A DNA stretch of 33,358 bases, from the NCBI GenBank assembly GCA_016178305.1, contig JACOTM010000025.1, positions 1 through 33,358 on the forward strand. Reading direction: 5' to 3'. Under the pieces are notes generated by a model. The model was not told the origin of the DNA, did not search any database, and saw only the letters and a list, made by a program, of their open reading frames with translations. Below are positions 1,465-33,358 of this stretch, in pieces. Origin of the DNA: Flavobacteriia bacterium (lineage in GTDB: Bacteria > Bacteroidota > Bacteroidia > Flavobacteriales_D > Crocinitomicaceae). The translations under genes and the position numbers were made by a program. Every line of letters begins with the position of its first letter. Position 1 is the first letter of the stretch.

Positions 1465-3636
1465 ATGAATTATTTTTTCGAACATTTTCTGAAAGCTTTT
1501 CAATTACCACTTAAAAATCCTGTTTTAATATTTTCAACAATTTTATTTATTATTTTACTGACTCCAATTGTGTTGCGTAAAATGAAAATTCCAGCAATTA
1601 TTGGTTTAATTATTTCAGGAGTTATTATCGGACCAAACGGATTTGGAATAATCGGAGAAAAATTATTAGAGTCGGACGGTTCTGTAAAACTATTCTCTAC
1701 TATTGGCTTACTTTACATCATGTTCATGGCAGGTTTAGAGCTTGATATGAAAGAATTTAAAAAATACCGTACTAAAAGTTTTACATTTGGATTTTTAACC
1801 TTCATCATTCCAATATCTTTAGGATTTCCAATTTGTCATTATGGACTTGGTTTAAATTTAACGGCAAGTATTTTAACCGCGAGTATGTTCGCAACACACA
1901 CGTTGGTAGCATATCCAATAGTTAGTAAATTAGGGATTTCAAAAAATGTAGTTGTAGCTGTTGCAGTTGGAGGAACGATTTTAACAGATACCGCAGTATT
2001 AATCATTTTAGCGATAATATCCAGTTCTGTTGAAGGACAATTGGATTTTTCTTTTTGGTTGAGATTAATTACCTCTTTAGCGATTTTCACATTTATCATG
2101 TTTGCGATTATTCCACGAATTGCACGTTGGTTTTTTAGTAAATTAGAAAGTGAAAAAACTGCCCATTACATTTTTGTCCTTTCAATTATTTTCTTTGCTG
2201 CATTTTTAGCTGAAATGGCTGGTGTTGAACACATTATAGGAGCTTTTGTTGCGGGATTGGTTTTAAATAAATTAATTCCACATACTTCTGCTTTAATGAA
2301 TCGTATTGATTTTATTGGAAATTCGTTATTCATTCCTTTCTTTTTAATTTCAGTAGGAATGATCGTTGATTACAAAGTACTTTTTCAAGGACCTTGGGCT
2401 TTGATTGTAGCAGGAGTTTTAACCACGTTTGCTTTAATTAGTAAATGGTTGGCAACATTTGTAACGCAATTAATTTTCAAAATGACGAACACAGAACGTC
2501 AAGTCATTTTTGGTTTAAGTTCAGCTCATGCAGCAGCAACATTGGCAATTATTATTGTAGGTTTTGAAAAAGGAATATTGAATAGTCAAGTAGTTAACGG
2601 CACGATATTGTTAATTTTAGTAACATGTATGGTCGCTTCATTTGTAACAGAAAATGCAGGAAAAAGATTACTTATTCAATTAGCTGAATCGGGTGAAGAA
2701 TCTGAATTAATACAAGTTTCAAGAAATCAACATTTATTGATTGCAATTAATGAGTTGAAAGGAAATGAACGCTTAATCGATTTGAGTGTTTTGATTACGG
2801 ATAAACGAGTTTTGAATCCTATTTCTGTTGTCAGTGTCTTGCCAAACAACCAAGAAGCCGAACAACGCATTCGAACTTCTCGAAAAGAAATGGATGAAAT
2901 CGTGAAACATTTTTCAGATGGAGAATTTACGGTAAATGTTGTCACGACCATAGATCACAATCAATCATCTGGTATTGCAAGAGTTTCGAAAGAATTATTT
3001 ACGGATATTTTAGTATTAAATGATAGTCGCAAGATTAATTTATTAAAACGTTTTGTAGGAGATGATCGTAATCATTTATTAGATGTTTGTGACAAAACAA
3101 TTTTTTTCTGTCAATTGGAAAAACCAACTGTATCTTATCAGAAAATTAAACTTATTTGTCCGCCTTTAGCTCATCTAGAAACAAGTTTTATAAGTTGGAG
3201 TGAACGTATATTACGATTAGCTAAAGAATTAAACATTACTATTGAATTTATTGGTACTTTAGAAACATTTGAAGCAATAAAAAAAGTAAAAAAAGCGGTT
3301 AAATTATCCGTCACAACTAAACATATTGAATTAAATGAATTAGAAGAATATTTTCTACTTAATCAAATTGTAACAGAAGATGAATTAATCGTATTTTGCT
3401 CTGCTCGTTCAGGTTCTGTTTCATATCTTTCATTTGTAGATTCTTTTCCTAATAAAATTGAAAAAGCATACCCGGATAATGATTTTATTTTGATTTATCC
3501 TTCGCAAGAAATCAGCAGCAATGCTTTTACAGCCTACGAAGATTTTGATAATTCCCCACTTTCCAAAGGTGTTGAAACGATTCAAAAAATAGGAAAAGAA
3601 GTTGGAAGTATTTTCAAAAAAAATGAACAAAGCTAA
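1465..3636 (+). CDS. cation:proton antiporter, CPA2 (KefB-like) family
   Basis: A 723-residue inner-membrane protein. The first 400 residues or so hold about 12 hydrophobic segments and read as a Na+/H+ exchanger domain, with conserved stretches IGLIISGVIIGPNGFG, LYIMFMAGLELD, ATHTLVAYPIV and GLSSAHAAATLA. It would exchange Na+ or K+ for H+ and help control pH and ion balance. The remaining 300 residues are soluble and look like tandem universal-stress-type (Usp) domains, an arrangement common in antiporters of this phylum; I see no TrkA-N nucleotide-binding motif. The start is the ATG after AGAGG. The flavoprotein gene begins 8 bases after its stop, so the two are probably co-transcribed. 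The ion carried cannot be told from sequence. Confidence 0.9.
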   Translation: MNYFFEHFLKAFQLPLKNPVLIFSTILFIILLTPIVLRKMKIPAIIGLIISGVIIGPNGFGIIGEKLLESDGSVKLFSTIGLLYIMFMAGLELDMKEFKKYRTKSFTFGFLTFIIPISLGFPICHYGLGLNLTASILTASMFATHTLVAYPIVSKLGISKNVVVAVAVGGTILTDTAVLIILAIISSSVEGQLDFSFWLRLITSLAIFTFIMFAIIPRIARWFFSKLESEKTAHYIFVLSIIFFAAFLAEMAGVEHIIGAFVAGLVLNKLIPHTSALMNRIDFIGNSLFIPFFLISVGMIVDYKVLFQGPWALIVAGVLTTFALISKWLATFVTQLIFKMTNTERQVIFGLSSAHAAATLAIIIVGFEKGILNSQVVNGTILLILVTCMVASFVTENAGKRLLIQLAESGEESELIQVSRNQHLLIAINELKGNERLIDLSVLITDKRVLNPISVVSVLPNNQEAEQRIRTSRKEMDEIVKHFSDGEFTVNVVTTIDHNQSSGIARVSKELFTDILVLNDSRKINLLKRFVGDDRNHLLDVCDKTIFFCQLEKPTVSYQKIKLICPPLAHLETSFISWSERILRLAKELNITIEFIGTLETFEAIKKVKKAVKLSVTTKHIELNELEEYFLLNQIVTEDELIVFCSARSGSVSYLSFVDSFPNKIEKAYPDNDFILIYPSQEISSNAFTAYEDFDNSPLSKGVETIQKIGKEVGSIFKKNEQS

Positions 3637-3644
3637 GTTGATTC

Positions 3645-4820
3645 ATGTCAACAAAAATTGTGCATATCATTGGAACTGGTCCTGCTGCTTTAATGGCCGG
3701 AACACAATTAGCTGAAAAGGGAATCAAAATACATTTTTACGACCAAAAAACAACACCAGCCCGTAAATTTTTGGTTGCTGGAAATGGTGGTTTTAATTTG
3801 ACCCACTCAGAATCGTTGAGTGAATTTATAAAAAAATACAATCGTTCTGAAATACAAAAAGCCGTTGAACAATTTACCAATATCGATTTTGTTCAGTTTC
3901 TAAAAAAAATAGGAATTGAAACTTTTACAGGAAGTTCGGGTAAAATTTTTCCTAAAAAAGGAATAAAACCCATTCAAGTAATTCAAGCATGGATTAGATA
4001 TTTAAAAAATCACAACGCTGAATTTCATTTTCAATATCGTTTTATAGATTTCAATGAGGTAACTTTTTGTGTAAAAGTTGAAGAATCAAAAAAAGTGATA
4101 CCTTATGAAAGACTTATTTTTGCTTTAGGAGGAGCTTCTTGGAAAAAAACTGGTTCAACTGGTGAATGGCTATCGCTATTTAAAAGGAAAGGAATTCAAT
4201 GTTCTGAATTTGAACCGAGTAATTCTGGCTTTGAAATTAGTAATTGGGAAATAAATGCAAAATATGAAGGTGAAGTATTCAAAAATTGTGTCGTTTCAAT
4301 CAATGGTGTTTCAAAATTAGGAGAAATTGTTTTAACCAAATATGGTTTAGAAGGAAGCCCTATTTATTTCCTAAATAAAGCTTATCGGATAAACCAAAAA
4401 TCATTATTACACTTAGATTTCAAAGCAACGAAAACAGTAGATGAGATCAAATTAATACTCCAAAAATCCAAAAATCATTCCGAAGGATTGAAAAATTTAA
4501 ATCTCTCAAAATTTGTTCAAGCATTTCTAAAAAACAATACTTCTAAAGAAATATTTTCATCTATTGATGCATTAGCAACAATAATTAAGGAATTTCCACT
4601 AACGATTCAATCACTACGTCCTATTGATGAAGTTATATCAACAATCGGTGGTATTTCTATGGATGCCATCAATTCTCAATTTCAATTAAAGCAATACCCA
4701 AATATTTCAGTATGCGGCGAAATGTTGGACTGGGATGCACCCACAGGTGGGTATTTAATTCAAGCAGCCGTTTCAAGTGGATTTATAGTTGGGAGATCAA
4801 TAAGTAAAGATTTAATTTAG
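3645..4820 (+). CDS. FAD-dependent oxidoreductase, TIGR03862-type flavoprotein (HI0933/BaiN superfamily)
   Basis: A 391-residue predicted flavoprotein. The N-terminus has a dinucleotide-binding Rossmann motif, GTGPAALMAG starting at residue 10. The family signature ARKFLVAGNGGFNLTHSE follows, and a C-terminal block GEMLDWDAPTGGYLIQAAVSSG matches the TIGR03862 branch of HI0933-like proteins. The physiological substrate of this branch is not established, so no reaction is assigned. It lies 8 bases downstream of the antiporter gene and converges with the helicase gene 13 bases further on, with no obvious terminator between them. Start: the first ATG after the antiporter stop. Confidence 0.85.
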   Translation: MSTKIVHIIGTGPAALMAGTQLAEKGIKIHFYDQKTTPARKFLVAGNGGFNLTHSESLSEFIKKYNRSEIQKAVEQFTNIDFVQFLKKIGIETFTGSSGKIFPKKGIKPIQVIQAWIRYLKNHNAEFHFQYRFIDFNEVTFCVKVEESKKVIPYERLIFALGGASWKKTGSTGEWLSLFKRKGIQCSEFEPSNSGFEISNWEINAKYEGEVFKNCVVSINGVSKLGEIVLTKYGLEGSPIYFLNKAYRINQKSLLHLDFKATKTVDEIKLILQKSKNHSEGLKNLNLSKFVQAFLKNNTSKEIFSSIDALATIIKEFPLTIQSLRPIDEVISTIGGISMDAINSQFQLKQYPNISVCGEMLDWDAPTGGYLIQAAVSSGFIVGRSISKDLI

Positions 4821-21997: not shown

Positions 21998-24799
21998 TTG
22001 AGTTTATCGATTAAACATAGCATTACAAGTATTTTGAATGAATTAAACAATTTCACTCAAAACGACATTCTTGTAAATGTACTTTCAGAAAAAGTTATAA
22101 ATCTTGATAAAATGAGCGATGAAGACTCTTTTATTCTACAAAATCTACCAGAATTAAATATTATCGTTCAAAAAACAGAAACGTATTATCGGGAGTCAGG
22201 AATAAAAGCAATTTGTTTAGCGGATGGAATTTTAGAGTTGAATTATAAGGGAAAAATAGTACAATCTCCAATTTTTATTACGCCCTTAGTTTATCAAAAA
22301 AACAGCATATTAAATGAATTTACTTTTGAAAAATTAGGCGATGCTCAATTTATCAATCCTTTCGTTCAAAAGTATTTACTCAACCAGTATAATTTAGTCA
22401 TCCCTGATATTGATTTATTTCAAAATAAATTGGAATTATTTCAAAATTGGTTACATTCTATTCAGCTCGATATTCAAGTTAAAAAAGAGCAATATTTAGG
22501 AAATTTTCATTACCATCGTTTTCATATTATCAAAGATTTAGAAGAACTATCAACTGCAAATACGCTAAATCAAAACGTAGCACAAATAGTAGGAAATGAG
22601 GAACAAAAAACAGAATTTAAGTTGCCTTTAACCAAAAAAATTCTATTTCCTTCAGACAACAACCATCTGCAAGTTTTTAAGACTATTGCAAACGAAAATT
22701 GCGTCATTCAAGGCCCTCCTGGAACTGGAAAATCTCAAGTATTAAGTAATGTAATCGGAAAATCATTGTATGATTCAAAAGCTACATTAGTTATTTCAGA
22801 AAAGAGAGTTGCTTTAGAAGTTTTACAAAAAAAATTAGCTACCTATCAATTAGATTCATTTTTATTCATTACAACTTCAGAAACTGTTTCTCAAGATTTT
22901 TTAAAATCTCTTGAAAAAACGTGGTATGAAATAGAAAATTATATTCCAAAAAACATACAATCAATCCAACTTTCAGAGCAATATAAAGATTATTTGCAAT
23001 TACAATTGGATTTATTATCCAAAAAGGAATTGATTGGCGGAGTTACTTTTGATGAATTTCAACATTTAGCTAAAAAAATAGATTTTGATACTGTAAATTA
23101 TTTAAGTGATGTTCCTAAAATAACAGATTGGCAAACCTATTATTCCATTATTCAGCGTTTATACGATTCCAAATGTCACTACTTACTTCCCTATTTTAAG
23201 TTTTCTTTTGTATGTTCTCCTGCTTTTGAAAATTTAGATATTATTGCACGCGAATGGCATAAAATAATTGTAAAGTTACATGCTGTTTTCCAGATAAATA
23301 CCTTGGAAGACCTTGATTTTGCGATAAAAAAGGCTTCTGTCTGTCAATTAATTACCAATGAAAGTCAGAAATTTTATTTTCCAATATTAATCCCAAATTC
23401 TAGGGAACAAAAGAAATATTATTCTTTAAAAAAGAAATATATCAAATGCCTACAATCGCTATCACGTTTAGAAAATGAGCAATTAAACTGGAAAGAATTT
23501 CCTTCTGCCAATGAAGTTAATATTCTTTTAGCACAATTGCAAAAAGGATCTTTTTTCCAAAAAAGAAAAGCCAAAAAACGAATTTCTAAATTAGCAAAAT
23601 CTTCCTTTATTCATCAGGAAGAAGCATTAATTAATTGGAAAGCATATTTAGAAATTTCAACACAATTAACAATACTTCAATTTGAATTTAAAGAAATTGG
23701 GTGTACAGATTTGGAATTGGATTTTTCACTAATCGATCTTCTATTAATGCAAATCAAAGAAAATGATTGGCAAATTTATTTCAATCTTACTGTCGAAGAA
23801 AGAGACTTATTTAACCAATATCATTCTGACTTAGGAAAATTAAAATCCATTTTTAAATCCTATTTTTCCATTTCAGAGCAAGAGAATATTCATCCCATTT
23901 TCGAGCAAATTACAATTCATTTTGAAGACGCGAAACTGCAATTACAAAACATTCAATCTTTACCTGAATCGCTGTTTAAATTGCTTTCTAAAGCTCCTGA
24001 TTATTCCTCTTTCGAAAAATTAATTTTTAAAGGAAATTGGGTTCAATTTGAACGGTATTTTCCAGAATTAGCAAAATTTAAACCTGAACAAATAGGTTTT
24101 AAAATTCAAGAAATTTTGAACTGCGAAAATGAAGAATATCAACAATTTGCAACAGAAATCCGCCAAAGAGTTTTTCATAAATTTCAAGAATATCATCGGA
24201 TATTACAAACTTCTACCGTGAAATTGACAACGGAAGAAAAAAACTTGAAAAAACAATTGAAAAAAGGGAAATCTATTTTAGTAAAGGAATTTGCCAAAAC
24301 CAGAAGTCACCCCACGATTCGAGAATTATTGCAAACCGAAGCGACTGTTTGGATTCAATTGCTAAAACCAATTTGGCTCAGCAATCCTGTACAAGTTTCT
24401 AAATGTTTTCCTTTAAATCCAAATTTATTTGATCTGGTAATATTTGATGAGGCTAGTCAAATACCTTTAGCGCATGCTTTGGGTTCAATACAACGGGCAA
24501 AACGAATTATTATAGCTGGAGATGAACAACAAATGAGTCCAAGTAATTTCTTTAAAACTGGGAATTCAGAAATTGTTGATTTATTACACCAAGCAGGGTT
24601 TTATTGGAAAACGGTTTCTTTACAACATCATTATCGAAGTCAATTCCCTGAACTGATTGAATTTTCGAACAAACATTTTTACAATCATTCTCTAATTACT
24701 TATCCTTCTGCAAATGCAGTGAAATATCCTATTCAACGACATTATTGTTCAAAGGGAATTTTTGAAGAGAATCAAAATAAAGAAGAAGCAAAAAAATAG
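21998..24799 (+). CDS. UPF1/DNA2-like superfamily I helicase, N-terminal 933 residues (frame-interrupted)
   Basis: Walker A GPPGTGKSQ lies at about 240-248, after a 230-residue N-terminal domain. Walker B DEASQ is at 817-821 in VIFDEASQIPLAHALG, followed by AGDEQQMSP. This is the UPF1/DNA2 pattern with a long insertion between motifs that is rich in Gln, Lys and Leu and partly coiled-coil. The frame ends GCA AAA AAA TAG at 24788-24799, before the last helicase motifs; these continue in the -1 frame to 25380. The start is TTG at 21998, directly after an in-frame stop, and the first ATG is only at codon 38, so the N-terminus is uncertain. Function, probably nucleic-acid unwinding, is inferred from the family. 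Confidence 0.8.
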   Translation: MSLSIKHSITSILNELNNFTQNDILVNVLSEKVINLDKMSDEDSFILQNLPELNIIVQKTETYYRESGIKAICLADGILELNYKGKIVQSPIFITPLVYQKNSILNEFTFEKLGDAQFINPFVQKYLLNQYNLVIPDIDLFQNKLELFQNWLHSIQLDIQVKKEQYLGNFHYHRFHIIKDLEELSTANTLNQNVAQIVGNEEQKTEFKLPLTKKILFPSDNNHLQVFKTIANENCVIQGPPGTGKSQVLSNVIGKSLYDSKATLVISEKRVALEVLQKKLATYQLDSFLFITTSETVSQDFLKSLEKTWYEIENYIPKNIQSIQLSEQYKDYLQLQLDLLSKKELIGGVTFDEFQHLAKKIDFDTVNYLSDVPKITDWQTYYSIIQRLYDSKCHYLLPYFKFSFVCSPAFENLDIIAREWHKIIVKLHAVFQINTLEDLDFAIKKASVCQLITNESQKFYFPILIPNSREQKKYYSLKKKYIKCLQSLSRLENEQLNWKEFPSANEVNILLAQLQKGSFFQKRKAKKRISKLAKSSFIHQEEALINWKAYLEISTQLTILQFEFKEIGCTDLELDFSLIDLLLMQIKENDWQIYFNLTVEERDLFNQYHSDLGKLKSIFKSYFSISEQENIHPIFEQITIHFEDAKLQLQNIQSLPESLFKLLSKAPDYSSFEKLIFKGNWVQFERYFPELAKFKPEQIGFKIQEILNCENEEYQQFATEIRQRVFHKFQEYHRILQTSTVKLTTEEKNLKKQLKKGKSILVKEFAKTRSHPTIRELLQTEATVWIQLLKPIWLSNPVQVSKCFPLNPNLFDLVIFDEASQIPLAHALGSIQRAKRIIIAGDEQQMSPSNFFKTGNSEIVDLLHQAGFYWKTVSLQHHYRSQFPELIEFSNKHFYNHSLITYPSANAVKYPIQRHYCSKGIFEENQNKEEAKK
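24790..24799 (+). promoter_or_regulatory. possible -1 frameshift site A AAA AAA followed by UAG
   Basis: Seven A at 24790-24796 fall in the zero frame as (GC)A AAA AAA, the X XXY YYZ arrangement of slippery heptamers, with the stop UAG next. A -1 slip reads ATA GCG CTA and joins the two helicase halves in frame. A GCGCTA-type palindrome follows, but no strong stem-loop or upstream SD stimulator is evident. A one-base deletion in an A8 run, or a sequencing error, would look the same. Confidence 0.4.
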
Positions 24800-25380
24800 C
24801 GCTATTAATTACTGAAAAAATTCAATTTGAAAATCCTTCCATTGGCATTGTTGCTTTTTCACAGACACAATTAAATTGTATTTGGAATCATTTGGATAAC
24901 AATACCCAAAATAAACTTCAAGATTTGATTGATTTAAATCTTGCTTTTTTTAAGTCATTGGAAAATGTACAAGGTGAAGAATGTGATTTTCTATTTATTA
25001 GTTTAGGATACGCCAAAAATGAAACTGGCGATTTTCACATGCGCTTTGGTCCAATCAATCAAAAAACGGGAACAAAACGTTTGAACGTTCTATTAACACG
25101 CGCTAAAGTGTCTATTGATTTTGTATGTTCCGTTCAATCCACGGATTTCAAACTTACAACAAATGAATCTATTCGCTTACTTCAATTGTTTTTACAACAA
25201 ATTGAAAACCCAAAAGCACAAATATTAAATGCTTTCCCTCATCAACTCACTCCCAGCATTAATTACACAACGAAGACTTCTACCTTTACTTCAATAACAA
25301 ACACATTAAATAATGTTAATGAATTGGTTACACTTCAAAGAGTATTACAAAACAGAGGTTGGAATGTAAAATATAATTAA
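24796..25380 (+). CDS. UPF1/DNA2-like helicase, C-terminal part in -1 frame
   Basis: About 194 residues in the -1 frame, starting from the A run. They hold the missing motifs: IGIVAFSQTQLNCIW, then ENVQGEECDFLFISLGY (motif V, with VQGxE) and GTKRLNVLLTRAK (motif VI, arginine finger region). The end VLQNRGWNVKYN is typical of these helicases. The two parts together give about 1,127 residues, the expected size for an intact protein. On its own this part has only a TTG (24892) as a plausible initiator and would lack the ATPase core. It therefore either depends on frameshifting, or the gene is damaged, or there is a base error. Confidence 0.75.
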   Translation: MALLITEKIQFENPSIGIVAFSQTQLNCIWNHLDNNTQNKLQDLIDLNLAFFKSLENVQGEECDFLFISLGYAKNETGDFHMRFGPINQKTGTKRLNVLLTRAKVSIDFVCSVQSTDFKLTTNESIRLLQLFLQQIENPKAQILNAFPHQLTPSINYTTKTSTFTSITNTLNNVNELVTLQRVLQNRGWNVKYN

Positions 25381-28288: not shown

Positions 28289-31200
28289 ATGGACTTAAAA
28301 GAACTCAAACAAAAATACGCTTCTTACAATCATGTTGAATCTTCTGCGAATGAATTGCAGATTGTAGGTTCTCGTGTACATTGGAAAGGATTAGTGGGTT
28401 CTTCAAAAGCGATTTGTTCTGCTGCTTTAGCCGAGCAAGTTCCTGGTCATCATTTATTTATATTAAACGACAAGGAAGAAGCGGCCTATTTCTTGAACGA
28501 TTTAGAAAGTTTCTATCCAAATGAAAATCGTGTTTTATTTTACCCTGCATCGTACCGTGTTCCTTATCAATTGGAAGAAACGGATAATGCGAATGTCGTT
28601 GCACGTGCAGAAGTATTAGAAAAGTTAAGTTCAGGTAAAAACGGTTGGATCGTAACTTATCCCGAAGCGTTATTTGAGCGTGTACCTACTAAGAAAAATC
28701 TACAAGAAAACACCTTATTAGTTCAAGTTGGAAAATCGTATTCGATAGACTTCATGAACGAATTATTGTTGGAATACCATTTCGAACGTGTTGATTTTGT
28801 TTACGAACCGGGACAATTTTCAATTCGTGGTGGTATTGTGGATGTGTTTTCTTATTCAAATGATTTTCCTTTCAGAATTGAGTTTTTTGGTGACGAAGTG
28901 GATTCGATTCGAACGTTCGATCCAAGTTCGCAGTTATCCATCAAAAAAATGGATCATTTCAACATCATTCCGAATGTACAGGGTAAAATGTCTTTTGAAG
29001 GAAATGGAACATTCTTGAGTTTTTTAGGCAAAAATGCTACCATTTGGTTATCTTCTTACAGTAAAGTTGAAAGTGTACTGGAGAAAGAATATCAGAAATC
29101 AGTTAAAATATACGACCAATTAAATTCAACGGTAAAGCATACCATTCCCAGTGAATTATACATGCACCCAACAGATTTAAAAGCTGAAATTCAGCATTAT
29201 TCGACCATTGAATGCGGACCTGAATATTTCTTTAAAGCGACTTTTGAAAGACAATTTACATTTCAACCGCAACCAAGCTTTAATAAGAATTTTGAAATTC
29301 TTCGTACCGATTTAATAGCACGGAAAAAAGCTGGATTTACGAATTTAATTTTCTCCAATCAACCGAAACAAATCGATCGTTTGGATCAAATTTTCCAAGA
29401 TATTGGTGGTGAAGTTGAATTTAGTCCGATGCACTTAGCTTTACATGAAGGTTTCATCGATCCAACTTTGAAAATCGTTTGCTACACGGATCATCAATTA
29501 TTCGAACGTTACCATCGTTTCTGTTTAAAAGAAGGATTCCAACAAGCAAAACAAGCCTTTACTTTAAAAGAAATTTACAATCTTCAAAAAGGAGATTACA
29601 TTACGCATATCGATCATGGAGTTGGTCAATTTTCTGGTTTACAAACCATTGATGTAAACGGAAAACCACAAGAAGCAATTCGTTTGTTATACAAAGATGG
29701 TGATGTACTTTATGTTGGAATTCACTCCTTGCACCGCATTTCTAAATTTACGGGTAAAGATGGTATTCCACCTAAAATGAACAAATTAGGTACACAAACA
29801 TGGACTACTCTAAAAAACAAAACGAAAACGAAAATCAAGGAATTAGCCTTTGATTTAATTCAATTATATGCCAAACGTAAATCTCAACCAGGATTTGCTT
29901 TTTCGCCTGACACATACATGCAAAATGAGTTGGAAGCATCATTTATGTATGAAGATACACCCGACCAATTAAAAACAACGCAAGCCATCAAGGAAGATAT
30001 GGAGTCTTCAACACCAATGGATCGTTTGATTTGTGGTGATGTAGGTTTTGGAAAAACAGAATTGGCTGTTCGAGCTGCGTTCAAAGCAGTTGCAGATAGT
30101 AAACAAGTTGCAGTATTAGTTCCAACAACGATTCTATCGATGCAGCATTATCGAAGTTTTGCAAAACGTTTGGAAGATTTTCCGTGTAAAGTCGATTATA
30201 TCAACCGCTTTAAATCAGCAAAACAAACGACAGAAACGTTGAAGAAACTGGCTTCTGGCGAAATCGATATTTTAGTAGGTACACACGCCATCGTTTCCGA
30301 AAAGGTAAAATTCAAAGATTTAGGATTGATGATTATCGATGAAGAACAAAAATTTGGTGTTGCGGTAAAAGATAAATTAAAAACCATACGGGCAACAGTT
30401 GATACCTTGACATTGACTGCTACGCCTATTCCGAGAACATTACAGTTTTCGCTGATGGGTGCACGAGATTTGAGTTTAATCAACACTCCTCCTCCGAATA
30501 GACAACCTGTTCTAACAGAGATCATTCAGTTCAATGAAGAAACTATTCGTGATGCCGTTGCTTATGAAATTTCAAGAGGCGGACAAGTATTCTTCGTTCA
30601 CAATCGTTTAGCCAATATCAAAGAAGTTTCGGGAATGTTACAACGACTTTGTCCTGGAATTCGAGTTGCGATTGGTCACGGACAAATGGACGGTAAAGAT
30701 TTAGAAAAAATAATGATGGATTTCATCAACCATGAATACGATGTTTTGTTGGCGACAACCATCATCGAATCTGGAATTGATATTTCCAATGCAAATACTA
30801 TCATCATCAACGATGCACACAACTTTGGATTGAGTGATTTACACCAATTAAGAGGTCGTGTTGGTCGTTCCAACAAAAAAGGGTTCTGTTATTTAGTCGC
30901 ACCAAAATTCTCTGTGTTGACTTCCGAAGCCAGAAAACGTTTAGAAGCCTTGGTTCAATTCTCCGATTTAGGTGCAGGTTTCAACATTGCCATGAAAGAT
31001 TTAGACATTCGTGGAGCTGGAAACATGTTGGGCGGTGAACAAAGTGGTTTCATTTCTGAAATTGGATTTGAGATGTATCAAAAAATCTTGAACGAAGCCA
31101 TGGAAGAATTGCGTGAAGAAGAATTCAAGACTTTGTTTGAAGAAAGAAACACTGATTCAATGACTTCTTTCATTCGTGAATGCGTTTTAGAAACAGATTT

Positions 31201-31648
31201 GGAAGTTAGAATACCCGATGACTATGTTAACAACGTAGCCGAGCGTTTAAGTTTGTACCAAGAAATGGACAACTTAGCCAACGATGAAGCTTTGACAAAA
31301 TTCACTGAATCATTAATTGATCGTTTTGGACCATTACCAAAAGAAGTGAAAGAATTGATTTTATCTTTCAAATTACGTTGGATGGCACAAGAATTAGGAT
31401 TAGAGAAATTAGTCTTAAAAAGCGGAAAAATGATTGGTTACTTCATTTCAAATCCTCAATCTGTTTATTATGAATCTCCTATTTTCACTGGAGTATTAAA
31501 CTATATTCAACGTGGACCAAAAGATTGCAAAATGAGTGAAGCCAACGATAAATTACGCATCATTTACGATAACGTGCAACACCTAAGAATGGCTTATGAA
31601 CGCTTGGAGGAAATTAAGATGATGGTGAATGTTACGGTTGAGAAATAA
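28289..31648 (+). CDS. mfd: transcription-repair coupling factor
   Basis: A 1,119-residue SF2 translocase that removes RNA polymerase stalled at DNA damage and recruits UvrA. The N-terminal UvrB-homology region occupies about the first 330 residues, including FVYEPGQFSIRGGIVDVFS and FRIEFFGDEVDSIR. The RNA-polymerase-interacting domain is at about 430-500 (KGDYITHIDHGVGQFSGL). In the motor, Walker A is GDVGFGKT at 583-590 and DEEQ is at 684-687, with TATPIPRTLQ and HQLRGRVGRS. The C-terminal TRCF domain is at about 960-1100. All parts are present. The 3' end (31529 onward) is partly duplicated after the next gene. No terminator follows the stop. Confidence 0.97.
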   Translation: MDLKELKQKYASYNHVESSANELQIVGSRVHWKGLVGSSKAICSAALAEQVPGHHLFILNDKEEAAYFLNDLESFYPNENRVLFYPASYRVPYQLEETDNANVVARAEVLEKLSSGKNGWIVTYPEALFERVPTKKNLQENTLLVQVGKSYSIDFMNELLLEYHFERVDFVYEPGQFSIRGGIVDVFSYSNDFPFRIEFFGDEVDSIRTFDPSSQLSIKKMDHFNIIPNVQGKMSFEGNGTFLSFLGKNATIWLSSYSKVESVLEKEYQKSVKIYDQLNSTVKHTIPSELYMHPTDLKAEIQHYSTIECGPEYFFKATFERQFTFQPQPSFNKNFEILRTDLIARKKAGFTNLIFSNQPKQIDRLDQIFQDIGGEVEFSPMHLALHEGFIDPTLKIVCYTDHQLFERYHRFCLKEGFQQAKQAFTLKEIYNLQKGDYITHIDHGVGQFSGLQTIDVNGKPQEAIRLLYKDGDVLYVGIHSLHRISKFTGKDGIPPKMNKLGTQTWTTLKNKTKTKIKELAFDLIQLYAKRKSQPGFAFSPDTYMQNELEASFMYEDTPDQLKTTQAIKEDMESSTPMDRLICGDVGFGKTELAVRAAFKAVADSKQVAVLVPTTILSMQHYRSFAKRLEDFPCKVDYINRFKSAKQTTETLKKLASGEIDILVGTHAIVSEKVKFKDLGLMIIDEEQKFGVAVKDKLKTIRATVDTLTLTATPIPRTLQFSLMGARDLSLINTPPPNRQPVLTEIIQFNEETIRDAVAYEISRGGQVFFVHNRLANIKEVSGMLQRLCPGIRVAIGHGQMDGKDLEKIMMDFINHEYDVLLATTIIESGIDISNANTIIINDAHNFGLSDLHQLRGRVGRSNKKGFCYLVAPKFSVLTSEARKRLEALVQFSDLGAGFNIAMKDLDIRGAGNMLGGEQSGFISEIGFEMYQKILNEAMEELREEEFKTLFEERNTDSMTSFIRECVLETDLEVRIPDDYVNNVAERLSLYQEMDNLANDEALTKFTESLIDRFGPLPKEVKELILSFKLRWMAQELGLEKLVLKSGKMIGYFISNPQSVYYESPIFTGVLNYIQRGPKDCKMSEANDKLRIIYDNVQHLRMAYERLEEIKMMVNVTVEK

Positions 31649-31697
31649 TTCCAATTTTTTAGGTAAATTAATTCTTAATTCTATTTGTTGAAATGAA

Positions 31698-31724
31698 CTT
31701 TTTCACTAACTTAAAGTGAAAAAG
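31698..31724 (+). promoter_or_regulatory. inverted repeat immediately upstream of the DUF1016 gene
   Basis: CTTTTTCACT, a 7-base spacer, then AGTGAAAAAG: perfect 10-bp arms ending 8 bases before the ATG. The right arm overlaps the only purine-rich RBS-like stretch (AAAAAGAAGA). It could be an operator or an mRNA hairpin hiding the start; there is no T run, so it is not a terminator for mfd. Confidence 0.6.
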
Positions 31725-31732
31725 AAGATTTT

Positions 31733-32758
31733 ATGAGTACAAATTCACCTAAAGAAACCACCAAATTAATCAATGAAATTAAAGGGATAATAAGCCTTTC
31801 AAGAGAAAATGCTATTCGTAAAGTTGATTCAGAACGTACTTTGATGTATTGGAAAATTGGAAAGCGCATTTTTGAAGAAGAACAAGCAGGAAAAGACAGA
31901 GCAGATTATGGAAAATATGTTGTTAAATTATTAGCTGAAAAATTACAACCTGAATTTGGAAGGGGATTTAGTATTAGACAATTAGAACGATATCGTCAGT
32001 TTTATAGAGTTTTTCCAATTGCGTCCGCAGTGCGGACGCAATTGAATTGGACACAATATAAACTTTTGTTAAGCATTGAAAATAAAGATAAAAGAACTTT
32101 TTATATTGCAGAATCAGTGAAAAATAATTGGTCTTCACGTCAAATGGAAAGACAGATTAATAGTCATCTTTTTGAAAGATTGTTAATGAGTAATGACAAA
32201 GAATCAGTATTAGCTGTTGCGCTAAAAGAACAAAAACCTAAAGAAGGAAAAGAAATTATTAAAGATCCTATGATTTTGGAATTTTTAGGTTTGAAACAAG
32301 AAAGCTCTTATTATGAACAAGAATTAGAGTCTGCTATCATTTCACATCTTCAAGATTTTCTTTTAGAATTAGGAAATGGATTTTCATTTGTAGCTCGACA
32401 AAAAAGAATTCATATTGAGGGAGATGATTTTTTCATTGATTTAGTTTTCTATAATCGTATTTTAAAATGCTTTGTTATCATTGAAATTAAAACCGAAAAA
32501 CTAACTCATTTACATTTAGGACAACTTCAAATGTATGTCAACTATTTTGACCGAATTGAAAAACTTGAAGATGAAAACAAGACAATTGGTATATTATTAT
32601 GCGCAGACAAAAATGATGCAGTTGTAAAATTTAGTTTACCCGAAAATTCAGAGAATATTATTGCAAGCAAATACCATCTTTATTTACCAACTGAAAAACA
32701 ATTATTATCTGAACTTGAAAATGAATTGAATTCTTTTATGAAAAATCTTGTAAAATGA
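31733..32758 (+). CDS. DUF1016 (YhcG-type) PD-(D/E)XK nuclease domain protein
   Basis: A 341-residue protein with the two-part DUF1016 layout. The N-terminal helical domain is at about 8-165 (RTLMYWKIGKRIFEEEQ, GFSIRQLERYRQFY, QLNWTQYKLLLSI). The C-terminal PD-(D/E)XK domain is at about 185-330, with D236 in FFIDLVFYN and E251-x-K253 in VIIEIKTEKL as the expected active site. Such proteins are common in accessory DNA beside restriction systems, and some act in phage defence; the role of this one is not known. No methylase or other partner is present. Odd points: a perfect 29-base palindrome covers codons 96-104 with GC-rich codons unlike the rest, and the gene is bracketed by two copies of the mfd 3' end. 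Confidence 0.92.
   Translation: MSTNSPKETTKLINEIKGIISLSRENAIRKVDSERTLMYWKIGKRIFEEEQAGKDRADYGKYVVKLLAEKLQPEFGRGFSIRQLERYRQFYRVFPIASAVRTQLNWTQYKLLLSIENKDKRTFYIAESVKNNWSSRQMERQINSHLFERLLMSNDKESVLAVALKEQKPKEGKEIIKDPMILEFLGLKQESSYYEQELESAIISHLQDFLLELGNGFSFVARQKRIHIEGDDFFIDLVFYNRILKCFVIIEIKTEKLTHLHLGQLQMYVNYFDRIEKLEDENKTIGILLCADKNDAVVKFSLPENSENIIASKYHLYLPTEKQLLSELENELNSFMKNLVK
32016..32044. repeat. perfect 29-base palindrome inside the DUF1016 coding sequence
   Basis: CAATTGCGTCCGCA, one G, then TGCGGACGCAATTG: 14-bp exact arms with a single central base. It encodes residues 96-104 (I-A-S-A-V-R-T-Q-L) in a part that fits the family, so it is in frame and not an obvious disruption. Its core is about 75% G+C in a gene that is otherwise strongly AT-rich. 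Confidence 0.9.
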
Positions 32759-32811
32759 GCGAAGTCAACGATATGTTACACATTATGGAAAGTTATACTC
32801 AGTATTTATAA
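32752..32811 (+). pseudogene. diverged duplicate of the mfd 3' end
   Basis: From AAAATGAG at 32752, 29 of 35 bases match mfd at 31529-31563. In the mfd reading frame this piece gives KMSEVNDMLHIMESYTQYL and then a stop, against KMSEANDKLRIIYDNVQHL in mfd. The similarity begins exactly at the last codons of the DUF1016 gene, whose TGA stop overlaps the ATGA. The copy has no mfd upstream sequence, so it cannot be functional. It looks like the remnant of the original 3' end, left when DNA carrying the DUF1016 gene entered. Confidence 0.55.
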
Positions 32812-32892
32812 TAAAAATATTAATTATCAGTATGTTATAAAATAATTTAGAAATTATTATTGAAAAAATTTAGATTATAAATATTTTCCTCG

Positions 32893-32900
32893 TATCTTTG
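32893..32900 (+). promoter_or_regulatory. orphan TAnnTTTG promoter element
   Basis: TATCTTTG is an exact -7 match; TTTAG, a degenerate -33, ends 19 bases upstream at 32873. No coding frame follows; instead a strong terminator begins 37 bases downstream. Confidence 0.5.
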
Positions 32901-32906
32901 ACCTGA

Positions 32907-32971
32907 TTTAGGTGGTTAGGTTAGGTTGATTAAAAGAAAGCGATAGGACGCCCGTTCTATCGCTTTTTTTG
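32907..32971 (+). ncRNA. candidate short RNA of about 65 nt (promoter directly followed by terminator)
   Basis: A start about 7 bases after TATCTTTG would give a transcript with a GGTTAGG direct repeat (GTGGTTAGGTTAGGTTG) and no start codon with a plausible RBS. It would end in the strong hairpin at 32937-32966 plus U run. No known RNA family is recognised. Alternatively it is a transcript leader, or a remnant of a gene's leader and terminator left by deletion. Confidence 0.35.
32937..32971 (+). terminator. strong intrinsic terminator
   Basis: AAAGCGATAG (32937-32946) pairs exactly with CTATCGCTTT (32957-32966), extended by three more pairs to a GCCC loop, and is followed by seven or more T. 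It would end any transcript from the orphan promoter or read-through from the DUF1016 gene. Confidence 0.9.
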
Positions 32972-32984
32972 ATTTATTTTTATT

Positions 32985-33124
32985 CGCTCCCGACTGGTCG
33001 GGTTGCGAAAAGGTCTATTTTTTTGGTTTTCCGTTATTCCGCTTAATTTCTTTCCGACTGGTCGGAAGAAATTTTGAAAATTGGGAGGCTTCCGTCAAAG
33101 CCTCTACCGACTTGGTCGGTAGGC
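32985..33124. repeat. cluster of three CCGAC-TKG-GTCGG palindromes
   Basis: The copies are CCCGACTGGTCGGG (32989-33002), TTCCGACTGGTCGGAA (33052-33067) and CTACCGACTTGGTCGGTAG (33104-33122). Each shares the core CCGAC, a 2-3 base centre and GTCGG, but has different outer arms that also pair (for example AATTTC/GAAATT around the second). The changing arms with a constant core imply compensating changes, so the fold matters, or independent copies of a mobile palindrome. A fourth hairpin, GAGGCTT/AAGCCTC, overlaps the third copy at 33085-33104. Confidence 0.75.
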
Positions 33125-33358
33125 GGAAACAAATACTTTGACCCCTCTAAGTGGTTATTTTTTCTCTCTCTCTTTCACGAATTTTTTAGAATAGCTTTAC
33201 AAGGATTTTTTGAATTTTTCGGCTTATTTTCTTCTCATTTTACAACCTGGAGATTCCGGTCATGTTGACCTCCTAATCCCGAAAATCATTGACCAGGTAT
33301 TTTATGATTCTCCAAAAACACCTAAAACAACAACTAACATACTGATTCAAAATTAAAT
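33125..33358. other. gene-free window end, possible mobile-element or leader remnant
   Basis: No convincing gene. There is a CT-rich tract at 33166-33176. A 54-base segment, 33245-33298, is bounded by ACCTGG/CCAGGT and contains the palindrome GGTCA-TGT-TGACC (33258-33270), with TCATTGACC nearby. On the minus strand an open frame enters from the window end and stops at 33273-33275, but its composition is not protein-like. The general look, palindromes plus short non-coding segments, recalls ends of insertion sequences in this phylum; I cannot assign a family. Confidence 0.3.

Follow-up and report, generated by a model that had tools for sequence, protein, structure and literature searches.

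A DUF1016 nuclease gene bracketed by two copies of the mfd 3' end in a Flavobacteriia genome, and similar footprints at other gene ends

In the 33,358-nucleotide contig JACOTM010000025.1 of a Flavobacteriia bacterium (Crocinitomicaceae, assembly GCA_016178305.1), referred to here as the window, a gene coding for a predicted nuclease of the DUF1016 family lies downstream of mfd, the gene of the transcription-repair coupling factor, and is followed by a second, partial copy of the mfd 3' end. How can a single gene come to lie between two copies of its neighbour's end? A sequence-only reading of this DNA had proposed that an insertion into the 3' end of mfd supplied the gene with a replacement end. 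The 29 identical positions out of 35 that it had reported between 31529-31563 and 32752-32786 were found again, and ten more bases on the left extend the match to 31519-31563 and 32742-32786 (36/45, 80%). The pair was detected by a direct-repeat search with a seed of 6 and missed with a seed of 9. The reading had also proposed an alignment with shuffled controls, and the repeat exceeded all of them: the last 420 nt of mfd aligned locally to 32752-32900 with a score of 40, the best of 2000 dinucleotide-preserving shuffles scoring 35, and the whole mfd aligned to 31649-33358 with a score of 45, the best of 300 such shuffles scoring 41, so that 0/2000 and 0/300 shuffles reached the score of the repeat. 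The similar peptides described in the mfd frame are KDCKMSEAND in the first copy and KSCKMSEVND in the second. The nuclease gene had been said to fill the space between the copies exactly, and this is right, as the second copy starts within the last DUF1016 codons and provides their TGA stop. Between the copies lie 84 intergenic bases and a single gene (31733-32758), which is the only open reading frame (ORF) of at least 60 aa there; no integrase or transposase ORF was found in this unit of the window. The observed repeat is thereby confirmed as real. The features of the locus are listed below, the compared genomes being designated by G numbers, with G000 for that of the window.

28289..31648, plus strand: mfd (transcription-repair coupling factor), its present 3' end being a substitute; ORF with TRCF, UvrB_inter, CarD_TRCF_RID, DEAD and Helicase_C domains, its end compared with that of G009.
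31519..31563, plus strand: left, functional copy of the repeated mfd segment (repeat search, alignment).
31624..31648, plus strand: terminal stretch of mfd that would have arrived with the insert, its left edge approximate (alignment of G000, G008, G009 and G010).
31649..31732, plus strand: intergenic stretch travelling with the unit, with an inverted repeat (31691-31707/31715-31731) inside; matched in G010, G008, G006 and G001.
31733..32758, plus strand: DUF1016/YhcG PD-(D/E)XK nuclease gene, 341 aa (PF06250, PF17761, PADLOC PDC-S02).
32016..32044, no strand: perfect in-frame palindrome of 29 bp, CAATTGCGTCCGCA-g-TGCGGACGCAATTG, residues 95-104 PIASAVRTQL (inverted-repeat search, alignments).
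32742..32811, plus strand: remnant of the native mfd 3' end, of which 45 nt are recognisable (to 32786), the mfd frame then staying open until a stop that ends at 32811; the stop codon of DUF1016 comes from the first bases of this remnant (repeat, relatives).

The mfd C-terminus was searched in 40 genomes (G000, 11 more of its genus and 28 others) and matched in 35, G003 and G011 being among those without a match. The mfd-DUF1016 arrangement is carried by G000, G008 and G010, the nuclease DNA of the latter two being 94% and 92% identical, respectively, to that of the window. In both, a second mfd 3' end follows the nuclease gene, one of 103 bases with 83% identity to the window mfd in G010 and one with 81% identity in G008; these remnants are longer than that of the window and, by eye, have changes in common that are missing from it. 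G009 has no DUF1016 gene behind mfd, which ends in ...EEIKLMISVVS* and is followed by an acyl-carrier-like gene (named by eye), and is thus the relative with a single mfd end running straight on that had been predicted. In G008 the remnant behind DUF1016 also ends in ...EEIKLMISVVS* and is followed by the acyl-carrier-like gene as in G009, whereas the functional mfd ends in ...KLLVSVTVEK*, resembling ...KMMVNVTVEK* of the window; the terminus of G009 therefore matches the remnant and not the functional terminus of G008. The functional mfd of the carriers differs in kind from that of G009 only in the last ~25 nt (by eye), the compared mfd being ~94% identical. This comparison of ends indicates that the insert brought a new end, as predicted, and that the native end was left behind. 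In a tree built on 1.8 kb of mfd, G009 branches outside G000, G010 and G008 (support of 0.908 for the split from G009 and the outgroups, and of 0.984 for G000 with G010), and is therefore better read as the state before insertion than as a loss. These data show that, in the common ancestor of the three carriers G000, G008 and G010, the native mfd end was displaced by a DUF1016 gene together with a substitute end, and they support the interpretation of the sequence-only reading.

Traces of the same unit were found in other genomes of the genus. Directly behind mfd, G001 contains pieces of the DUF1016 gene (24/24 and 44/47 bases, 94-100% identical) together with its intergenic part (blast), and G006 contains the intergenic part (blast) and, by eye, the start of the nuclease gene, mfd itself being just 78-79% identical in these two genomes. 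Although the pieces are short, this suggests a transfer of the mfd-DUF1016 unit between clades to the same place. Unit pieces behind mfd had no match in G007, G002, G004 and G005. In G011, a contig begins with the final part of this nuclease gene, after which comes a short stretch resembling mfd (by eye). The mfd matches of G016, G017, G018 and G037 contain an in-frame stop within the searched stretch, perhaps the normal stop read through by the search.

To what extent this footprint occurs elsewhere was assessed by a flank direct-repeat test (1.5 kb on each side of the ORF, blastn E<=1e-4, loci with short flanks dropped). Flank repeats were found at 33/170 DUF1016 loci (16/55 of 59 given, 9/45 of 48 and 8/70 of 80), which represent 167 distinct genes with one locus counted twice; an earlier run of the last set with other boundaries had given 12/72. 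Among control ORFs, repeats were found for 4/172 other ORFs in the same loci and for 1/41 in a second control set. By reading, the duplicated sequence is the end of a gene, or lies immediately beyond it, in 20 of the 33 repeats, at 15 host places, these repeats being 22-259 bp long and 80-100% identical. The other 13 are dispersed or unclear (L097, L112, L117, L134, L161, L188, L207, L208, L239, L241, L244, L250 and L257). An automatic classifier gave 22 3' ends and 2 5' ends; it places several of the 13 unclear repeats on a neighbouring ORF and omits the mfd case of the window, and because of these misassignments and this omission the reading was preferred. The host families were tested for L25, the synthetase, LMWPc, the oxidoreductase, both methylases, ribonucleotide reductase, the helicase and tRNA-Leu; the TonB-type gene, hisB and the three 5'-end genes were named by eye. 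The host places are:

Places 1-5: mfd (3 genomes); tRNA-Leu; N6-methylase (hsdM-type); ribosomal protein L25 with its terminator; Eco57I-type methylase.
Places 6-9: acetyl-CoA synthetase; luciferase-like oxidoreductase (3); LMWPc-family arsC-like gene (2); AAA helicase.
Places 10-12: terminator of a TonB-type gene; bases just past hisB (22 bp only); ribonucleotide reductase.
Places 13-15: three 5' ends (L101, L159 and L164).

The footprint thus recurs with DUF1016 at other gene ends. L204 resembles the window in that the cargo takes its stop codon from the remnant. An hsdM-type case in the genome of the window itself (L033) did not pass the final test (69% over 78 bases, E 1.6e-4), and L168, which had a repeat in an earlier run, was dropped from it. 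No common motif was visible at the joints of genes other than the oxidoreductase gene. Three loci carry further features. In Necropsobacter rosorum (L123, 5894-7045), DUF1016 lies between hisB- and hisH-like genes and is bracketed by a perfect 22-bp repeat containing AAGTGCGGT, the Pasteurellaceae uptake signal; this is a hint that natural transformation may have been the vehicle. The insert behind the ribonucleotide reductase gene of an Omnitrophota record (L173, 4800-5360) also has an ORF for a small membrane protein and a zeta-toxin-like fragment (by eye), so that units can hold more than one gene. A control ORF of G015 (L055, ORF 3373-4570, MNTDKSHIIQ...) is bracketed by a 261-bp direct repeat (98%) and may be another gene of the gene-end-inserting kind.

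Is the footprint specific for DUF1016? The notion that accessory genes in general leave such scars did not hold, as none of 30 Fic genes had a flank repeat. Repeats were found for 5 of 25 Abi_2 genes tested out of 30, three of them at the 5' ends of hsdR/hsdS-type genes (by eye), and for 6/28 KilA-N genes tested, of which L373, L387 and L396 are of the gene-end type by reading. The value for ORF6N (6/26) includes tandem ORF6N paralogues and was not used. The Abi_2 and KilA-N cases weaken the idea that the footprint is DUF1016's own; it is also found with these other genes.

The luciferase-like oxidoreductase gene, found in 9 of the 13 genomes of genus g2 that were searched, has the following at its 3' end:

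DUF1016: G077, G012 and G065.
RhuM gene and a 122-aa ORF: G112, in which a DUF1016-like ORF starts only beyond the remnant.
KilA-N: G088, and decayed KilA-N in G105 and G049.
HipA gene, without a repeat: G126.
Nothing of the insert kind: G137.

In all seven carriers (G077, G012, G065, G112, G088, G105 and G049) the oxidoreductase remnant starts at one identical base. The substitute ends differ between the DUF1016 and the KilA-N groups, and the sequence adjoining the joint is common to the RhuM and DUF1016 inserts (by eye). A break point shared across cargos is evidence against random joints, although it concerns one gene and two clearly separate cargo types. The sequence-only reading had also expected that other genes would be found as cargo at this site. 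At mfd itself nothing but decayed pieces of the same unit, in G001 and G006, was seen, whereas the oxidoreductase gene of g2 does receive different cargos, with DUF1016 in three species, KilA-N in three and RhuM in one. The oxidoreductase gene with a KilA-N scar in G049 (L359) is itself frame-broken.

A second series with an empty site was obtained for the LMWPc-family arsC-like gene in genus g35, which was searched in 71 genomes and matched in 39. In G156 and G204 the arsC-like gene is followed by DUF1016 and a second 3' end, and in G232 by an internally deleted DUF1016 gene and a second 3' end (repeat of 152 bases, 97%). In G202, G146 and G215 a single arsC-like end is followed at once by a terminator-like hairpin and then by a peroxidase gene of opposite orientation; G156 has this peroxidase gene (PF00141) behind the arsC-like remnant.

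The DUF1016 protein of the window matches PF06250 (E 9e-58) and PF17761 (E 2e-42), that is, DUF1016_N and the YhcG_C PD-(D/E)XK domain, and contains the residues E212, D236, E251 and K253, which correspond to the E-D-ExK motif of the YhcG family given in the accessible part of PMC1189080. The same source predicts DNA cleavage for DUF1016 and, in that part, reports that conserved neighbours were not found. By its HMM (E 2e-142) the protein is a member of the phage-defence candidate PDC-S02 of PADLOC. No solved homologue was found by sequence; the predicted structure (pLDDT 74, pTM 0.44) resembled NucS/EndoMS-type endonucleases only weakly and in part (TM of 0.24 relative to the query) and gave nothing firm on the N-terminal domain. 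E. coli yhcG had a megablast match in 4417/5426 genomes, with a median of one place, and DUF1016 matches were found on 459 plasmid records. In the accessible text of the literature located, no demonstrated function was found for DUF1016, a predicted nuclease family, and footprints of gene-end replacement by DUF1016 were not described, including in PMC4316617 and PMC11341870; literature on YhcG and on single-gene defence hotspots likewise yielded nothing on such footprints.

The nuclease gene contains a second unusual feature, the 29-base palindrome at 32016-32044, which occurs once in its genome, no further copy being found there with up to 3 mismatches. The same site is palindromic, with other bases but with the symmetry kept, in DUF1016 genes from Bacteroidota, Chlorobium, Treponema, Omnitrophota, clostridial and Pasteurellaceae records. 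In the DUF1016 alignment the mean arm is 6.8 at the palindrome column, compared to at most 1.8 at any other column, and all four Watson-Crick pairs are seen at positions 3 to 8 from the centre. A few DUF1016 genes, as in L033 and L083, have a palindrome elsewhere, additionally or instead, and 14/128 have no good site in a loose-anchor scan, in which 4/97 distinct sites are chance matches (by eye). Perfect arms of at least 10 were found in 64/170 DUF1016 genes (3/340 synonymous shuffles), in 19/29 KilA-N genes, one of the 19 at another site (0/58), and in 14/30 ORF6N genes (0/60), compared to 1/30 Fic (0/60) and 0/25 Abi_2 genes (0/50). Among distinct genes on viral contigs of IMG/VR, which replicate the excess, such arms occur in 8/21 DUF1016 (0/63 shuffles), 19/53 KilA-N (1/159) and 15/41 ORF6N genes (1/123), a few at other sites. 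No perfect arm of at least 10 was found in RhuM (n=4), HipA (n=6) or hsdS (n=8) ORFs; the imperfect palindromes of the 4 RhuM genes are slightly better than shuffles (11.0 vs 9.5 of 13), a sample too small to judge. In 2.08 Mb of fetched DUF1016-centred DNA, 60 of the 81 ORFs with a perfect arm of at least 11 are DUF1016-like by pattern, and the remaining 21 are by eye mostly DUF1016, KilA-N or ORF6N, with a handful of others.

These palindromes of about 24-37 bp lie mostly at one site per family. When sites were anchored on peptide motifs, which kept 117 distinct sites from 191 DUF1016 sequences, 45 from 109 KilA-N and 33 from 75 ORF6N sequences (the rest lacking the motif or being duplicates), 10.1, 11.6 and 11.8 of 13 positions, respectively, were paired, compared to 6.5, 8.6 and 9.5 with right arms dealt among the sequences (sd 0.13 to 0.21), a dealing that leaves relatedness in. 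The KilA-N and ORF6N anchor motifs include palindrome residues and the ORF6N value is the best of three centres, which somewhat favours pairing. A palindrome acting as RNA was considered and rejected: mismatches of the G:U and C:A types numbered 67 vs 58 in DUF1016, 16 vs 13 in KilA-N and 2 vs 16 in ORF6N, and 42 vs 47 in the loose-anchor scan. As the mismatches have no consistent G:U preference, a DNA dyad is preferred over an RNA structure. Most likely, the palindrome would be a dyad to which a dimeric protein binds, probably the product of the gene, and it might serve as an operator or a cut site inside the gene. That it has no function, replication template switching continually turning imperfect palindromes into perfect ones, as is discussed for the coding palindromes of Nematomorpha mitochondria in the accessible part of PMC6649704, appears unlikely, given the homologous site across phyla in DUF1016 and the excess in three families next to 0/25 Abi_2 and 1/30 Fic genes. 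Literature on KilA-N/ORF6N palindromes and on coding palindromes yielded nothing on a bacterial or phage in-frame palindrome. Some ORF6N genes occur in tandem arrays of three (G188:C37, G177:C17, G165:C24 and G136:C15).

We consider it probable that the substitute-end unit entered mfd through homology at one end and through a joint of limited specificity at the other, DUF1016 being one of several solitary cargos and the palindrome a protein-bound dyad. A unit of at least 1.1 kb, consisting of the substitute mfd 3' end, the intergenic stretch and the DUF1016 gene, was placed within the mfd 3' end, so that mfd now reads into the substitute end while the native end decays behind DUF1016. Entry might start with a double-strand break near the gene end, possibly made by the nuclease; on one side the unit's copy of the host gene end would be exchanged with the resident gene by homology, and on the other the joint would be specific, illegitimate or based on microhomology. 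A gene arriving behind foreign promoters would bring along any operator that is located within it. As KilA-N and RhuM share landing site and break point with it, DUF1016 is likely one of several cargos and not the sole driver, and a cargo that leaves the same footprint with no recognised nuclease domain weighs against a nuclease break as a requirement. Several observations count against this explanation. The window remnant is short and 80% identical, and without G008 and G010 it would be no proof of replacement; the tree is built on no more than 1.8 kb of mfd; of the 33 repeats, 13 are dispersed or unclear, and not every one of the remaining 20 is independent, as mfd contributes three, the oxidoreductase three and the arsC-like gene two. 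The RhuM and DUF1016 inserts may go back to a single event in which the cargo was later exchanged, leaving only KilA-N as clearly separate. Abi_2 has a similar repeat rate with no palindrome excess, so that the footprint can arise without the DUF1016 nuclease and without the palindrome. A bolder version, in which integrase-free single-gene cassettes (DUF1016, KilA-N, ORF6N, perhaps others) hop between conserved gene ends with replacement ends and share the in-frame dyad of 24-37 bp, part of the coding sequence of an N-terminal or DNA-binding domain, as a recognition site for mobility or self-control, seems to us rather unlikely.

Four other explanations have to be weighed. Chance similarity or a tandem duplication with no insertion, to which the short repeat of the window taken alone might point, is extremely improbable in view of the 0/2000 and 0/300 shuffles, the insert-free mfd end of G009 and the full-length remnants that G008 and G010 retain. 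An accident of DNA uptake, in which a donor fragment with mfd and DUF1016 entered by homology-facilitated illegitimate recombination with a random second joint and a passive cargo, is somewhat unlikely; the process does yield one homologous and one illegitimate joint according to the accessible part of PMC3240628, and the footprint is also seen with Abi_2 and KilA-N, but the single break point for different cargos in the oxidoreductase gene (one gene, two clearly separate cargo types) and the 0/30 Fic genes speak against it. If DUF1016 were instead a homing-type nuclease, cutting the DUF1016-less allele near the gene end so that repair copies the unit in, as proposed for the endonucleases of mobile ORFs (mORFs) in fungal mitochondria, the PD-(D/E)XK residues, the recurrence at 15 host places, an anatomy like that of the mORF gene hybrids as far as PMC3630166 describes it in its accessible part, and the high identity of the G001 gene fragments (94-100% over 47 and 24 bases, with mfd at 79%) would all fit. 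This analogy remains quite unlikely, as no shared target motif is visible at the right joints and an identical footprint surrounds the KilA-N cargo of G088, whose sole Pfam match is KilA-N. An integrase acting in trans on minimal elements with attachment sites in gene 3' ends, like cis-mobilizable elements moved by the recombinase of another element, would account for the 3'-end landing, the substitute ends and the fixed break point, and one case overlaps the 3' part of a tRNA-Leu gene. No integrase was recognised by eye among the insert ORFs (no HMM search for integrases was made), the host genes are diverse, the repeats of 22-259 bp with 80-100% identity have no constant core, and three cases (L101, L159 and L164) lie at 5' ends; we therefore regard this explanation as quite unlikely.

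If true, placement of substitute-end units at gene ends would account for the spread of solitary accessory genes and candidate defence genes in the absence of recombinases, and for the sudden differences between close species in the final codons of mfd and other core genes. The palindrome would provide a candidate binding or cutting site for each DUF1016 subfamily that can be read from the gene itself, which makes the biochemistry directly testable.

Other features of the window were also noted. The stretch from the mfd remnant to the end of the contig holds three CCGACT(T)GGTCGG palindromic repeats (32979-33128), which are perhaps the reason why contig C18 of G000 ends at 33358. An Rfam scan of 31500-33358 up to E 1 gave a single match, below the gathering score, at 32851-32967, to the Bacteroides sRNA BTnc231 (23.5 bits, gathering 80.4), overlapping a terminator-like hairpin at 32933-32970. 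At 21998-25380, a helicase-like gene (by eye) is split into ORFs of 933 and 162 aa, the first of which matches PADLOC PDC-S37; a frameshift is possible.

Among known systems, integrative and cis-mobilizable elements (CIME) land at gene 3' ends and bring a replacement end. The unit described here differs from them in being a single gene of about 1.1 kb with no integrase seen and with repeats that vary in length and identity; the repeats at the two ends are 80-100% identical, and old insertions would have diverged from identical att cores. Homology-facilitated illegitimate recombination, as presented in the accessible part of PMC3240628, resembles our case in its one homologous and one non-homologous joint formed without an integrase, whereas here the event recurs at gene ends and, in a single gene, different cargos share the break point. 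The mORFs of fungal mitochondria form gene hybrids of atp6, atp9, cox2 and nad3, including Allomyces atp6 (PMC3630166, in the part available). According to the same text, an endonuclease ORF lies at the gene 3' end, a foreign C-terminal part is joined in frame and the native one lies downstream, and the native copy is nearer to the insert-free relative, as is the G008 remnant to G009. Unlike the mORFs, which code for LAGLIDADG or GIY-YIG enzymes, the gene studied here is of the PD-(D/E)XK type (DUF1016) and lies in a bacterial chromosome, its cutting is predicted, and cargos other than nucleases are found in the same kind of place. The coding palindromes of Nematomorpha mitochondria are also inverted repeats within translated genes with both arms coding, as described in the accessible part of PMC6649704; those reported here are short (about 24-37 bp), lie mostly at one site per family and belong to three bacterial and phage gene families.

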